Shown here piece by piece: positions 37,468 to 40,891 of a DNA stretch of 64,000 nt. Under the pieces are notes generated by a model. That model ran no database searches. It worked only from the letters and a program-made list of their open reading frames with translations, and was not told the origin of the DNA. Position 1 is the first letter of the stretch, and each line of letters begins with the position of its first letter. Source of the DNA: Parapedobacter tibetensis (lineage in GTDB: Bacteria; Bacteroidota; Bacteroidia; Sphingobacteriales; Sphingobacteriaceae); NCBI RefSeq assembly GCF_024704835.1, contig NZ_JAMXBE010000002.1:62001-126000 (forward strand), given 5' to 3'. Both the position numbers and the translations under genes were made by a program.

Positions 37468-38352
37468 ATGAAAAAAGCATATATATTCCCCGGACAGGGT
37501 GCCCAATTTGTGGGTATGGGACAAGACCTATACAACCATAGCGATGAGACAAAGTTTTTGTTTGAGCAAGCCAATGAGATCTTGGGTTTTCGGATCACGG
37601 ATGTGATGTTTGGCGGCACGGAAGAGCACTTGAAACAAACTAACGTGACCCAACCAGCCATTTTCTTGCATTCTGTGATTTTGGCCAAGGCATTAGGCAA
37701 GACTTTTGACCCTCAAATGGTTGCAGGACATTCCTTGGGAGAATTTTCGGCATTGACTGCGGCCGGTGCATTGAATTTTGAAGATGGATTGAGGTTAGTA
37801 GCTGCCCGTGCCAACGCTATGCAGAAAGCCACGGAAATTCAACCATCTGCCATGGCTGCCATCTTGGGGTTGGATGATTTTGCGGTGGAAGATATATGTC
37901 AACGGGTAAGCGATGTGGTCGTCCCTGCAAATTACAATTGCCCTGGCCAATTGGTTATTTCGGGTAGTATCGCCGGTGTGGACAAGGCTTGTGAATTGTT
38001 AGTGGAAGCAGGGGCGAAACGGGCATTGAAACTCAATGTAGGTGGTGCATTCCATTCGCCATTGATGGAGTCGGCGAAAGTGGAGCTGCAGGCTGCAATA
38101 GAAGCTGTGGAAATCCGAGAACCGATATGCGCGGTTTACCAAAACATCGATGCCAAGGCGTACACGAATCCAGTGGCAATAAAGCACAACCTCATTGAAC
38201 AACTTACTGGACCTGTACGCTGGACACAAACCGTATTGCACATGATTGAGGACGGAGCGACGTCATTCACCGAGATAGGGCCGGGGAATGTGCTGCAAGG
38301 ATTGGTGAAAAAAATAAACCGGCAAGCGGAAACTGAAGCAGCTTCCTTATAA
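37468..38352 (+). CDS. fabD: Malonyl-CoA:ACP transacylase
   Basis: A 294-residue enzyme that loads malonyl groups onto acyl carrier protein for fatty-acid synthesis. Family motifs: FPGQGAQFVGMGQDLY at the N-terminus, active-site serine in AGHSLGEFSALTAAGA (about residues 89-104), and the catalytic-His region GGAFHSPLM. Length is normal. No other fab gene is adjacent, so it is not part of a fab operon here. It converges with metK across a shared bidirectional terminator. Confidence 0.96.
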   Translation: MKKAYIFPGQGAQFVGMGQDLYNHSDETKFLFEQANEILGFRITDVMFGGTEEHLKQTNVTQPAIFLHSVILAKALGKTFDPQMVAGHSLGEFSALTAAGALNFEDGLRLVAARANAMQKATEIQPSAMAAILGLDDFAVEDICQRVSDVVVPANYNCPGQLVISGSIAGVDKACELLVEAGAKRALKLNVGGAFHSPLMESAKVELQAAIEAVEIREPICAVYQNIDAKAYTNPVAIKHNLIEQLTGPVRWTQTVLHMIEDGATSFTEIGPGNVLQGLVKKINRQAETEAASL

Positions 38353-38364
38353 AAGAATAAATTA

Positions 38365-38418
38365 AAACCTCATAGGTTTCGCCCGCACTGATTGCCCGAA
38401 CGTAAACCTATGAGGTTT
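38365..38418. terminator. Bidirectional terminator between fabD and metK (AAACCTCATAGGTTT repeat)
   Basis: A 15-bp perfect inverted repeat, AAACCTCATAGGTTT (38365-38379) and AAACCTATGAGGTTT (38404-38418). Short T runs sit at the ends of both strands, and it lies between two converging genes. Same family as the repeats at 8051-8137 and 59437-59482. Confidence 0.7.
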
Positions 38419-38430
38419 GTAGCTACCTTG

Positions 38431-39684
38431 TTATAACCCAAAAGCAGCCTTCACCTTATCCACATAATCCAGCTTTTCCCAAGTGAATAGTTCTACCTCT
38501 TGGGTGGTAGTTTCACCATTGCTGCTTTCAAATGTCTTGGTAACGATACGTGGCTCGCGCCCCATATGCCCATAGGCAGCCGTTTCCGAATAAATGGGGC
38601 TACGTAGCTTGAGCCGGGTTTCGATGCCGTAAGGTGTCATATCAAACAGTTCATGGATTTTACTGGCGATTTGACCATCGGTGAGCCCCACCTTGGCAGA
38701 GCCATAAGTATTTACATAAATACCGATGGGGTCTTTCACGCCGATTGCATAGGATACCTGTACCAGTAGTTCGTCTGCCACACCAGCGGCCACCAAGTTC
38801 TTGGCGATGTGCCTGGTGGCATAAGCAGCGGAACGGTCTACTTTCGATGGGTCCTTGCCTGAAAAGGCTCCTCCGCCGTGGCCCCCTTTGCCACCATAAG
38901 TGTCTACGATGATTTTCCTTCCAGTCAATCCGGTGTCGCCATGTGGTCCGCCGATGACGAACTTACCCGTAGGGTTAATATGGTATTTGATGTCATCTGT
39001 GAAAAGCTGTTGCAACTCCGGCTTCAACTGTGATTTTACCCGTGGAATTAAAACATGAATGATGTCTGATTTAATTTGTTCAAGCATAGCTGTTTCCGAA
39101 TCAAACTCGTCATGCTGGGTAGATATCACAATGGCATCGATGCGGATAGGTTTATGGTCATCACTATATTCGAGGGTTACCTGAGCCTTGGCATCTGGCC
39201 TTAAATACGTGATTTCCTTGTTCGCACGGCGTAGCGCAGCTAGCTCATATAGCAGCCGGTGCGAAAGGTCGAGCGCTAAAGGCATCAGGTTTTCAGTCTC
39301 ATTGCTGGCGTATCCAAACATCATACCTTGGTCTCCGGCACCCTGTTCCTGCTTTTCTTTGCGATCTACGCCTTGGTTTATATCAGGTGATTGCTCATGT
39401 ATTGCTGACAATACCCCACAAGAATTGGCTTCAAACATGTACTCGGATTTGGTGTATCCAATACGTTCAATTACGGAGCGGGTGATTTTCTGCACGTCGA
39501 GGTATATATTGGACTTCACTTCGCCGGCCAAGACCACTTGCCCAGTGGTTACTAAGGTCTCGATGGCCACGCGCGCGTCGGGATCCCAAGCGAGGAAATG
39601 GTCAATGAGGGAATCAGAAATTTGATCGGCTATCTTGTCTGGATGTCCTTCCGAAACCGATTCTGAGGTAAATAAATAAGGCAT
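38431..39684 (-). CDS. metK: S-adenosylmethionine synthetase
   Basis: A 417-residue enzyme making S-adenosylmethionine from methionine and ATP. Motifs: [15 protein letters not shown] (ATP site, about residues 9-23), [12 protein letters not shown], and the [22 protein letters not shown] loop region. The start was moved to ATG 39684 ([17 protein letters not shown]), since the longer ORF would add 29 unrelated residues from the leader. The 177-nt leader upstream has strong RNA structure and looks like a riboswitch (listed separately), and an excellent promoter lies at 39866-39896. Confidence 0.97.
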
Positions 39685-39728
39685 AACTAATTGTAAATCA
39701 GTATTATAATAGAAGTTATAAAAATTAC

Positions 39729-39862
39729 CGTGAATGGTTAATTGCGATGGGGAAGTTATGGTGCAAAACAAACAATAAGGTAGGTTTTAGCACTTTTTTA
39801 CCGTGGTTGCAATCCTAAGCGGTCTACGACACCGCCATACGCAAATCAATCCACAATTCACG
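39729..39862 (-). promoter_or_regulatory. Riboswitch-like structured leader of metK (SAM-I-clan-like)
   Basis: Read on the minus strand. A closing helix of about 18 pairs joins 39862-39840 (CGUGAAU ... UGCG) with 39746-39729 (CGCA ... AUUCACG). Inside are a hairpin GCGGU (39835-39831)/ACCGC (39823-39819) and a second arm UAGG (39817-39814)/CCUA (39784-39781). The second arm encloses GCAACC (39810-39805) and GUGCUAA (39793-39787), which resemble the GGCAACC and GGUGCUAA boxes of SAM-I riboswitches. The 5' SAM-I motif (k-turn region) is not recognisable, so it may be a divergent or different class. It precedes metK, a classic SAM-riboswitch target. Confidence 0.5.
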
Positions 39863-39865
39863 CTG

Positions 39866-39896
39866 CAAACTTAGATAAACTTGCCTTTATATGCAA
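39866..39896 (-). promoter_or_regulatory. Promoter of metK (-33 TTG, -7 TAAGTTTG)
   Basis: Minus strand TTG at 39896-39894, 20-nt spacer, TAAGTTTG at 39873-39866, identical in box and spacing to the pdhA promoter. The transcript would begin near 39861, just where the folded leader begins. Confidence 0.7.
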
Positions 39897-39993
39897 ATAT
39901 ACCTATACGATAAATGGAGAGCGAAGGGTGATGTGACCATATTAAATTTTCATTAAATAATTTTGCTTATTAAAGAATGTTGTATTTTGCAGG

Positions 39994-40001
39994 TACATTT
40001 G
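39994..40001 (+). promoter_or_regulatory. -7 box TACATTTG before the lipid kinase gene
   Basis: TACATTTG matches TAnnTTTG and ends 11 bases before ATG 40013. A second partial box TATTTTG at 39983-39989 with TTG at 39963-39965 is an alternative. Confidence 0.35.
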
Positions 40002-40012
40002 TGGCCAACTAT

Positions 40013-40891
40013 ATGGAAAAAAGGAAGCGCATTCTATTTGTTATCAATCCGATATCGGGAGGTAAGAAGAAGAAAGGCTTTGAAAAGCGGGTCAGTGAAG
40101 ACCTCGATGCGACTACGTACACAGCAGAGTTTGTCCATACACGATATGCTAATCATGCCTATGAGTTGGGCGTGCAAGCGGTTGCAGCAGCTATAGATGT
40201 GGTGGTGGCGGTGGGTGGTGATGGTACAATCAATGAAATCGCTTCTGCATTGAATGGTACCGATACCGTATTAGGAATCGTGCCTGAGGGATCCGGCAAT
40301 GGGTTGGCGTTGTATTTGGGTATTCCACTTAATGAACGTGCCGCAGTCCGCAGGTTGAACCGGTTTGAACCGATAACCATTGATAGTGGCACGATAAATG
40401 GCCATTTGTTTTTCAATATGGCGGGTATAGGATTCGATGCATCGGTAAGTGATCGATTTGCCAATGACAACATTAGGGGAGCGATCGGTTATCTGAAGGC
40501 TGTGTTGAGCGAAATCAGTACCTATAAGCCCAAGCAGTATACGTTAGACATTGATGGGAAGACTTTCAAACGAGAAGCATTTATGATTAGTGTGGCTAAT
40601 TCACCACAATATGGGAATAATGCCTATGTTGCACCACAGGCTTCCATAACGGATGGAATATTAGACGTATGCATCATCCATAAATTCCCGTTATATATAT
40701 TTCCAATGATGTTGTTTCACTTGTTCAACAAGACGGCCGACCAATCTGAATATGTGGAAATCATCCCGGGCAAGCAAATCCATATTGAACGGCAAACGGC
40801 AGATGCAGTGCACGTGGATGGTGAACCAAAAGAAATGGGCACAGTGCTTGATATCGCGGTGAATCCAAGTACATTGAAGATCCTGTGTTGA
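40013..40891 (+). CDS. Diacylglycerol kinase / YegS-like lipid kinase
   Basis: A 292-residue lipid kinase of the DAGK catalytic-domain family. Motifs: ILFVINPISGGKKKKGFE at the N-terminus, VVVAVGGDGTINEIASAL (nucleotide-binding GGDGT) and VPEGSGNGLALYLGI. Family members phosphorylate diacylglycerol, sphingosine or related lipids on the cytosolic membrane face. Sphingobacteria make sphingolipids, so a sphingoid substrate is possible (inference). Start at ATG 40013 (MEKRKRILFVIN) fits the promoter position; the upstream ATG would add 12 residues. The SUI1 gene follows after 21 bp. Confidence 0.88.
   Translation: MEKRKRILFVINPISGGKKKKGFEKRVSEDLDATTYTAEFVHTRYANHAYELGVQAVAAAIDVVVAVGGDGTINEIASALNGTDTVLGIVPEGSGNGLALYLGIPLNERAAVRRLNRFEPITIDSGTINGHLFFNMAGIGFDASVSDRFANDNIRGAIGYLKAVLSEISTYKPKQYTLDIDGKTFKREAFMISVANSPQYGNNAYVAPQASITDGILDVCIIHKFPLYIFPMMLFHLFNKTADQSEYVEIIPGKQIHIERQTADAVHVDGEPKEMGTVLDIAVNPSTLKILC

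Follow-up and report, generated by a model that had tools for sequence, protein, structure and literature searches.

By its sequence, the metK leader in the window (the whole 64-kb stretch of DNA analysed here) is a SAM riboswitch of class SAM-II, matching the Rfam family "SAM-II long loop" (RF01726). We infer SAM binding and regulation by this leader from its class membership. Most likely the element, placed at the 5' end of the metK mRNA, would lower metK expression when SAM is plentiful, and off-switching by SAM via alternative pairing is the likely route. Taken as a whole, a SAM-II riboswitch on metK that works by anti-aptamer switching is the best explanation we can offer, and one that we regard as probable. 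The element belongs to a known riboswitch class, with the addition of an optional hairpin, and is not a new class; "SAM-II long loops" were tabulated as a class in 2010, with Bacteroidetes and marine entries in the excerpt concerned (Weinberg et al. 2010, PMC2864571).

Class and architecture of the element

The gene, its promoter, and the parts of the aptamer are as follows.

38431..39684, minus strand: metK, S-adenosylmethionine synthetase, 417 aa (three S-AdoMet_synt domains, Pfam PF00438, PF02772, and PF02773)
39866..39897, minus strand: Bacteroidetes-type promoter, from sequence (TTTG at 39897-39894, 20-nt spacer, TAAGTTTG at 39873-39866)
39777..39860, minus strand: SAM-II (long loop) riboswitch aptamer, RF01726 (aligned over model positions 1-60 of 60 at 52.3 bits, with a gathering score of 44 and, across the 64-kb window, an E of 3.8e-7)
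39854-39851 and 39806-39803, minus strand: P1 helix, GUGG with CCAC (two further U-G pairs possible)
39850-39842, minus strand: L1, AUUGAUUUG, from the covariance-model match mapped on the sequence
39818..39836, minus strand: extra hairpin, GGCGGU-GUCGUAG-ACCGCU, an insertion that follows L1 and precedes the P2 5' strand
39781..39817, minus strand: pseudoknot P2, paired by analogy with SAM-II
39817-39814 and 39784-39781, minus strand: P2a, UAGG with CCUA (4 pairs)
39812-39808 and 39792-39787, minus strand: P2b, UUGCA with UGCUAA
39802-39793, minus strand: L3, A-rich

Promoters of Bacteroidetes follow the consensus TTG / TAnnTTTG. The sequence agrees with the initial annotation in placing a promoter with TTG and a 20-nt spacer before a metK leader of about 177 nt; the ATG lies at 39684-39682 on the minus strand, and the promoter position leads us to expect transcription to start at about 39860-39862. 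Across 128 parsed leaders, an exact TAnnTTTG is found upstream of P1 in 106 (median distance to P1, 12 nt), and TTG stands at the expected upstream spot in only 29 of those 106.

At gathering thresholds, RF01726 is the sole Rfam element in the entire 64-kb window, which confirms the proposal of the initial annotation that a SAM-sensing riboswitch precedes metK. When 601 bases were scanned permissively (E up to 10) against all 4227 Rfam families, RF01726 had an E of 3.6e-9, the next match stood at a chance-level 3.1, and the SAM-I, SAM-IV, and SAM-V models had no match to the leader. Within its own genome, the metK leader is the one RF01726 match at E up to 0.001. The match is full-length and above the gathering score, and shares with the family P1, L1, the P2 strands, L3, and metK downstream; the window differs in its 28-nt hairpin insert between L1 and P2, which is an insertion to the 60-position model. 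The pseudoknot core is also shared with the alpha-proteobacterial metX SAM-II, which we take to be the Rfam family SAM_alpha.

The initial annotation had assigned the leader to a divergent member of the SAM-I clan or to an unlisted SAM class, with a multi-branch domain closed by 39862-39840 and 39746-39729. GCAACC and GUGCUAA do resemble SAM-I boxes, and the minimum-energy fold of the leader contains the closing helix. However, the scan with Rfam SAM-clan models that it had recommended found nothing of the SAM-I clan at E up to 10, SAM-II being the class that did match, and the closing helix occupies the same bases as P1 and L1 of SAM-II. We therefore give the SAM-I-type assignment next to no credence. 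The P2/k-turn half of SAM-I, whose absence had been remarked upon, is missing because the leader fold is an H-type pseudoknot. The individual segments read by eye are all present in the sequence, namely the GCGGU/ACCGC hairpin (within 39836-39818), GCAACC (39810-39805), and GUGCUAA (39793-39787), and the latter two boxes are SAM-II core segments. The significant structure of the leader is the SAM-II pseudoknot formed by P1, P2a, and P2b, with helix names following the excerpts of two SAM-II structure papers (PMC5352136, PMC12434664).

The window's leader carries the core GAUUU (L1) together with UUGCA and GCUAA (P2b). Among the parsed leaders, GAUUU is found in 127/128, UUGCAACC in 127/128, and GCUAA in 128/128, counts to be read with the fact that the parser itself required loose forms of all three. 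P1 shows a compensatory change: three leaders from other families (L144, L149, and L153) have GAGG/CCUC where the window has GUGG/CCAC. For P2a, 110 distinct leaders average 2.50 pairs vs 2.27 with shuffled tails, and 20 of 2000 shuffles score as high.

Distribution among relatives and the loop hairpin

An RF01726 match (E up to 0.01) is present in 139 of the 151 genomes of the host family, Sphingobacteriaceae, and lies above the cut-off in 115; in the whole class, 28 of 198 genomes reach an E of 0.001 or better. We fetched 131 of the 142 places found in the family, and metK lies downstream of the element in all 131. A pattern search recovers the core boxes at 130 of these 131 places, corresponding to 130/140 family leaders with a readable start, the other ten being one core-mutated leader (L087) and nine from genomes without the element. 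The initial annotation had made conservation of its boxes and of its closing helix across related metK leaders decisive: the boxes are conserved (130/140), and the related leaders do not share a single closing helix that can be aligned. In L087, from genus g13, GAUUGCUGCC replaces the otherwise near-invariant GAUUGCAACC, with the hairpin, P1, and GCUAA intact; this could be a decaying switch, an altered ligand, or a sequencing error.

Twelve family genomes have no RF01726 match; ten of these have a metK match, nine of them with a readable start, and two have none. These nine element-less metK loci (L132-L140), four of which belong to the window's own genus, gave no riboswitch match at E up to 1. 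In eight of them, the ATG lies only 21-44 nt behind TAnnTTTG, so the aptamer and the part downstream of it are mostly missing together. The ninth leader (L138) measures 66 nt and begins with GUGGACGGGACCAC; by eye, this resembles a P1 hairpin that survived an internal deletion. We consider these nine genomes putative natural losses of SAM control, usable as comparison strains.

The window's insert, of 28 nt, carries a 6-pair hairpin and separates L1 from the P2 5' strand. Insert length was obtained for 123 parsed leaders, of which 41 have 6 nt or less and 82 have 16-36 nt; 79 of the 82 long inserts fold better than the mean of their own shuffles (mean -5.8 vs -2.8 kcal/mol), and their sequences vary between genera. 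The hairpin is found in 11 of the 22 parsed genera. Judging from these predicted folds, it is real but optional, and kept as structure rather than as sequence. SAM-V, as described in an excerpt of PMC6061858, is likewise an H-type pseudoknot, has almost the same binding site as SAM-II, occurs in Bacteroidetes too, and has an extra hairpin, P3. However, P3 follows the 3' side of P1 and precedes the last P2 strand, whereas the window's extra hairpin stands between L1 and the P2 5' strand. A few long RF01726 matches also occur in other families of the class; in family f54, three of the five SAM-II matches (G214, G249, and G281) span 103-108 nt, which suggests that their insert in this loop is longer still.

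Proposed alternative pairing of the aptamer with the downstream leader

Two segments downstream of the aptamer are complementary to parts of it.

39729..39746, minus strand: CGCAAUUAACCAUUCACG, the proposed anti-aptamer arm, which can pair with the 5' flank, P1 5' strand, and L1 (39862-39840) and is the downstream strand of the closing helix in the initial annotation
39761..39769, minus strand: GUUUUGCAC, a second possible alternative pairing, complementary to GUGCUAAAAC (39793-39784; p 0.05 in the window)

What stands of the closing helix is its pairing, since the arms 39862-39840 and 39746-39729 do give 18 pairs at -15.3 kcal/mol. Its reading as a functional multi-branch fold is not confirmed: whole-leader folding barely beats shuffles (z -1.24; 18/200 shuffles as good), and the 5' arm reaches p 0.09 against shuffled downstream sequence in the window and p 0.09 to 0.77 in four congeners with the element. 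We rejected the minimum-energy fold of the whole leader as a guide, as it cannot show a pseudoknot and is misleading. Because the closing helix uses P1 and L1 bases, it and the SAM-II fold are mutually exclusive. We also rejected a pairing of the P2 3' strand with the downstream GUUUUGCAC, which gave p 0.35 to 0.93 in the four congeners and no excess across the family.

Since the window's 5' arm alone gave p 0.09, we asked about complementarity across species, taking that of the aptamer to its own downstream leader minus that to the downstream leaders of other genera, averaged by genus, for seven segments in three sets. For the 5' flank, P1 5' strand, and L1 combined, the own-minus-swapped energy in the long-insert class averages -1.96 +/- 0.37 kcal/mol and falls below zero in 10 of the 11 genera (p 0.0002 by t-test and 0.001 by Wilcoxon test), with -1.8 in the window's genus and +0.2 in genus g16, where the signal is absent; leaders that lack a long insert give -0.70 +/- 0.51 (p 0.10). 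Without the flank, P1-5' and L1 give p 0.23 over all genera and p 0.03 in the long-insert class. The P2 5' strand, P1 3' strand, and L3 give -0.95 +/- 0.35 (17/22 genera negative, p 0.0065), with no excess in the window's genus (about +0.6 to +0.7). None of the controls (P2 3' strand, loop, and promoter) differs from zero, either over all genera (+0.08, 0.00, and -0.08) or in the long-insert class (-0.26, -0.29, and +0.04). Tested as a whole against its own downstream leader, the aptamer has z -1.02 in 55 long-insert and -1.80 in 34 other leaders, the reversed-sequence control giving 0.07 and 0.19. The p-values have to be tempered, as the segments, with the 5' flank added, were chosen after a weaker first duplex test on short aptamer pieces (111 leaders; mean z between -0.26 and -0.52).

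Words enriched after the aptamer, counted in 109 leaders, include GCAATC, the most enriched 6-mer (22 leaders vs 1.7 expected), TGCAATC, the most enriched 7-mer (15 vs 0.6), and TTTTTAC (32 vs 9.0), which are complements of the aptamer segments GAUUGCA and GUAAAAA; other enriched words (TTCTGC, 19 vs 3.1; CTGTTT, 20 vs 3.7; GATTTTT, 19 vs 3.2) fit the model less simply. With relatedness handled by thinning alone, the ordered pair TTTAC-n3..14-CAATY is found in 18/89 leaders vs 2.0 expected, and TTTTAC lies downstream in 43 of the 70 leaders that carry GTAAA or GTTAAA in L3 vs 1 of the 19 that do not. By eye, no covariation is seen in the post-aptamer GCAAUC pairing beyond the invariant GAUUGCA, so the case for this part is its enrichment, and the UUUUAC/GCAAUC pattern is only occasional in the 17 leaders shown from other families.

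Because the own-vs-swapped excess is seen in 10 of 11 long-insert genera, the 5'-strand arm is probably real, and the closing helix is probably an anti-aptamer arm; the multi-branch structure of the initial annotation is at most an alternative conformation to the SAM-II fold. In long-insert genera, the comparison supports alternative pairing of the 5' strand of the aptamer that differs from lineage to lineage, and the simplest reading would be an anti-aptamer platform using different aptamer strands per lineage. A rival account has the post-aptamer complementarity play no switching role, leaving a plain SAM-II aptamer followed by an unstructured G-poor spacer. The per-leader effects are indeed modest and differ between genera, and most individual tests are not significant; however, the downstream leader is enriched in words exactly complementary to the best-conserved parts of the aptamer, and the excess is seen at genus level with controls not different from zero, and we judge this account unlikely.

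Under anti-aptamer switching, P1, the L1-P2 triplex, and the pseudoknot would form in the SAM-bound state. In the SAM-free state, a downstream complementary arm would open the aptamer, in the window by pairing of 39862-39840 with 39746-39729 and in other genera often by UUUUAC...GCAAUC binding to the P2 5' strand and L3. SAM would then close the aptamer, freeing the arm and the G-poor, pyrimidine-rich leader. The approximately 130 related leaders turn this into a testable prediction concerning the arm, its partner, and compensatory mutations.

The post-aptamer leader and its readout

39685..39780, minus strand: G-poor post-aptamer leader up to the start codon (20 C and 8 G in 96 nt)

For the readout, a plausible candidate that we put forward tentatively is Rho-dependent attenuation, in which the freed leader would undergo early Rho-dependent termination. 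Rho favours C-rich, G-poor stretches, and rho is present in the genome. C exceeds G in 127/127 post-aptamer leaders, compared with 10/17 TPP and 5/22 cobalamin leaders of the same family and 77/174 upstream regions of the window's own genome. Measured against TPP leaders, the depletion of G is clear (10.0% vs 19.1%), whereas C richness is modest (22.8% vs 21.7%), as is the difference in YC dinucleotides (9.9 vs 8.8 per 75 nt). G depletion may serve just to keep the leader open, or other needs of an unstructured leader.

A simple scan for a hairpin with a T-run found intrinsic terminators in one of 89 nonredundant leaders (L128, not the window's) vs 2.0 expected, in agreement with the initial annotation, which had seen none in this leader. 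An excerpt of PMC6061858 states that most SAM-II riboswitches are transcriptional; against this, the terminator count makes a SAM-II element acting through an intrinsic terminator very improbable here.

Control at translation, the choice of the initial annotation, would have the two folds differ in the openness of the start region. The best-studied SAM-II, that of metX, is translational according to an excerpt of PMC10907184, a Sinorhizobium SAM-II paper is titled as controlling translation at a distance (PMC9373788), and initiation in Bacteroidetes is described in an excerpt of PMC6847099 as tuned by structure near the start codon. In metX SAM-II, excerpts place the Shine-Dalgarno sequence in the P2a strand (PMC10907184, PMC12434664); the window's P2 contains no ribosome-binding site of this type, its aptamer ending at 39777, 92 nt before the start codon at 39684 (mostly 60-100 nt in related leaders), so occlusion of the metX type is inapplicable. 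For the start region, complementarity to the post-aptamer leader is at chance level (z -0.01 in 59 long-insert and 0.13 in 34 other leaders), and predicted openness with the aptamer removed does not change systematically (more open in just 58/128, one without a value). Sequestration of the start codon by the released arm, hinted at by L097, L054, and L100, all of one genus, was rejected, family-wide complementarity being at chance. These results go against the translational reading, which we nevertheless hold to be the main rival readout, only a little less likely than Rho-dependent attenuation.

We found no account of SAM-II readout in Bacteroidetes among the matches listed (full text, open-access subset), and in Bacteroidota, which lack Shine-Dalgarno sites, this readout is the point of interest. 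In Sphingobacteriaceae, and perhaps more widely in Bacteroidota, one might speculate that an anti-aptamer arm captures the SAM-free aptamer and that SAM, by releasing the arm, makes a G-poor leader available to Rho, with an optional loop hairpin and no Shine-Dalgarno sequence; in this general form, we consider the scheme somewhat unlikely.

Upstream of metK lies a divergent YegS/diacylglycerol-kinase-like gene (39977-40891, plus strand), a relative of which is found by tblastn in 116/131 fetched riboswitch loci and 7/9 riboswitch-less loci, so the metK neighbourhood is conserved. Between metK and the convergent gene at 37468-38352, an inverted repeat seen by eye at 38364-38418 (AAACCTCATAGGTTT / AAACCTATGAGGTTT) looks like a two-way terminator.
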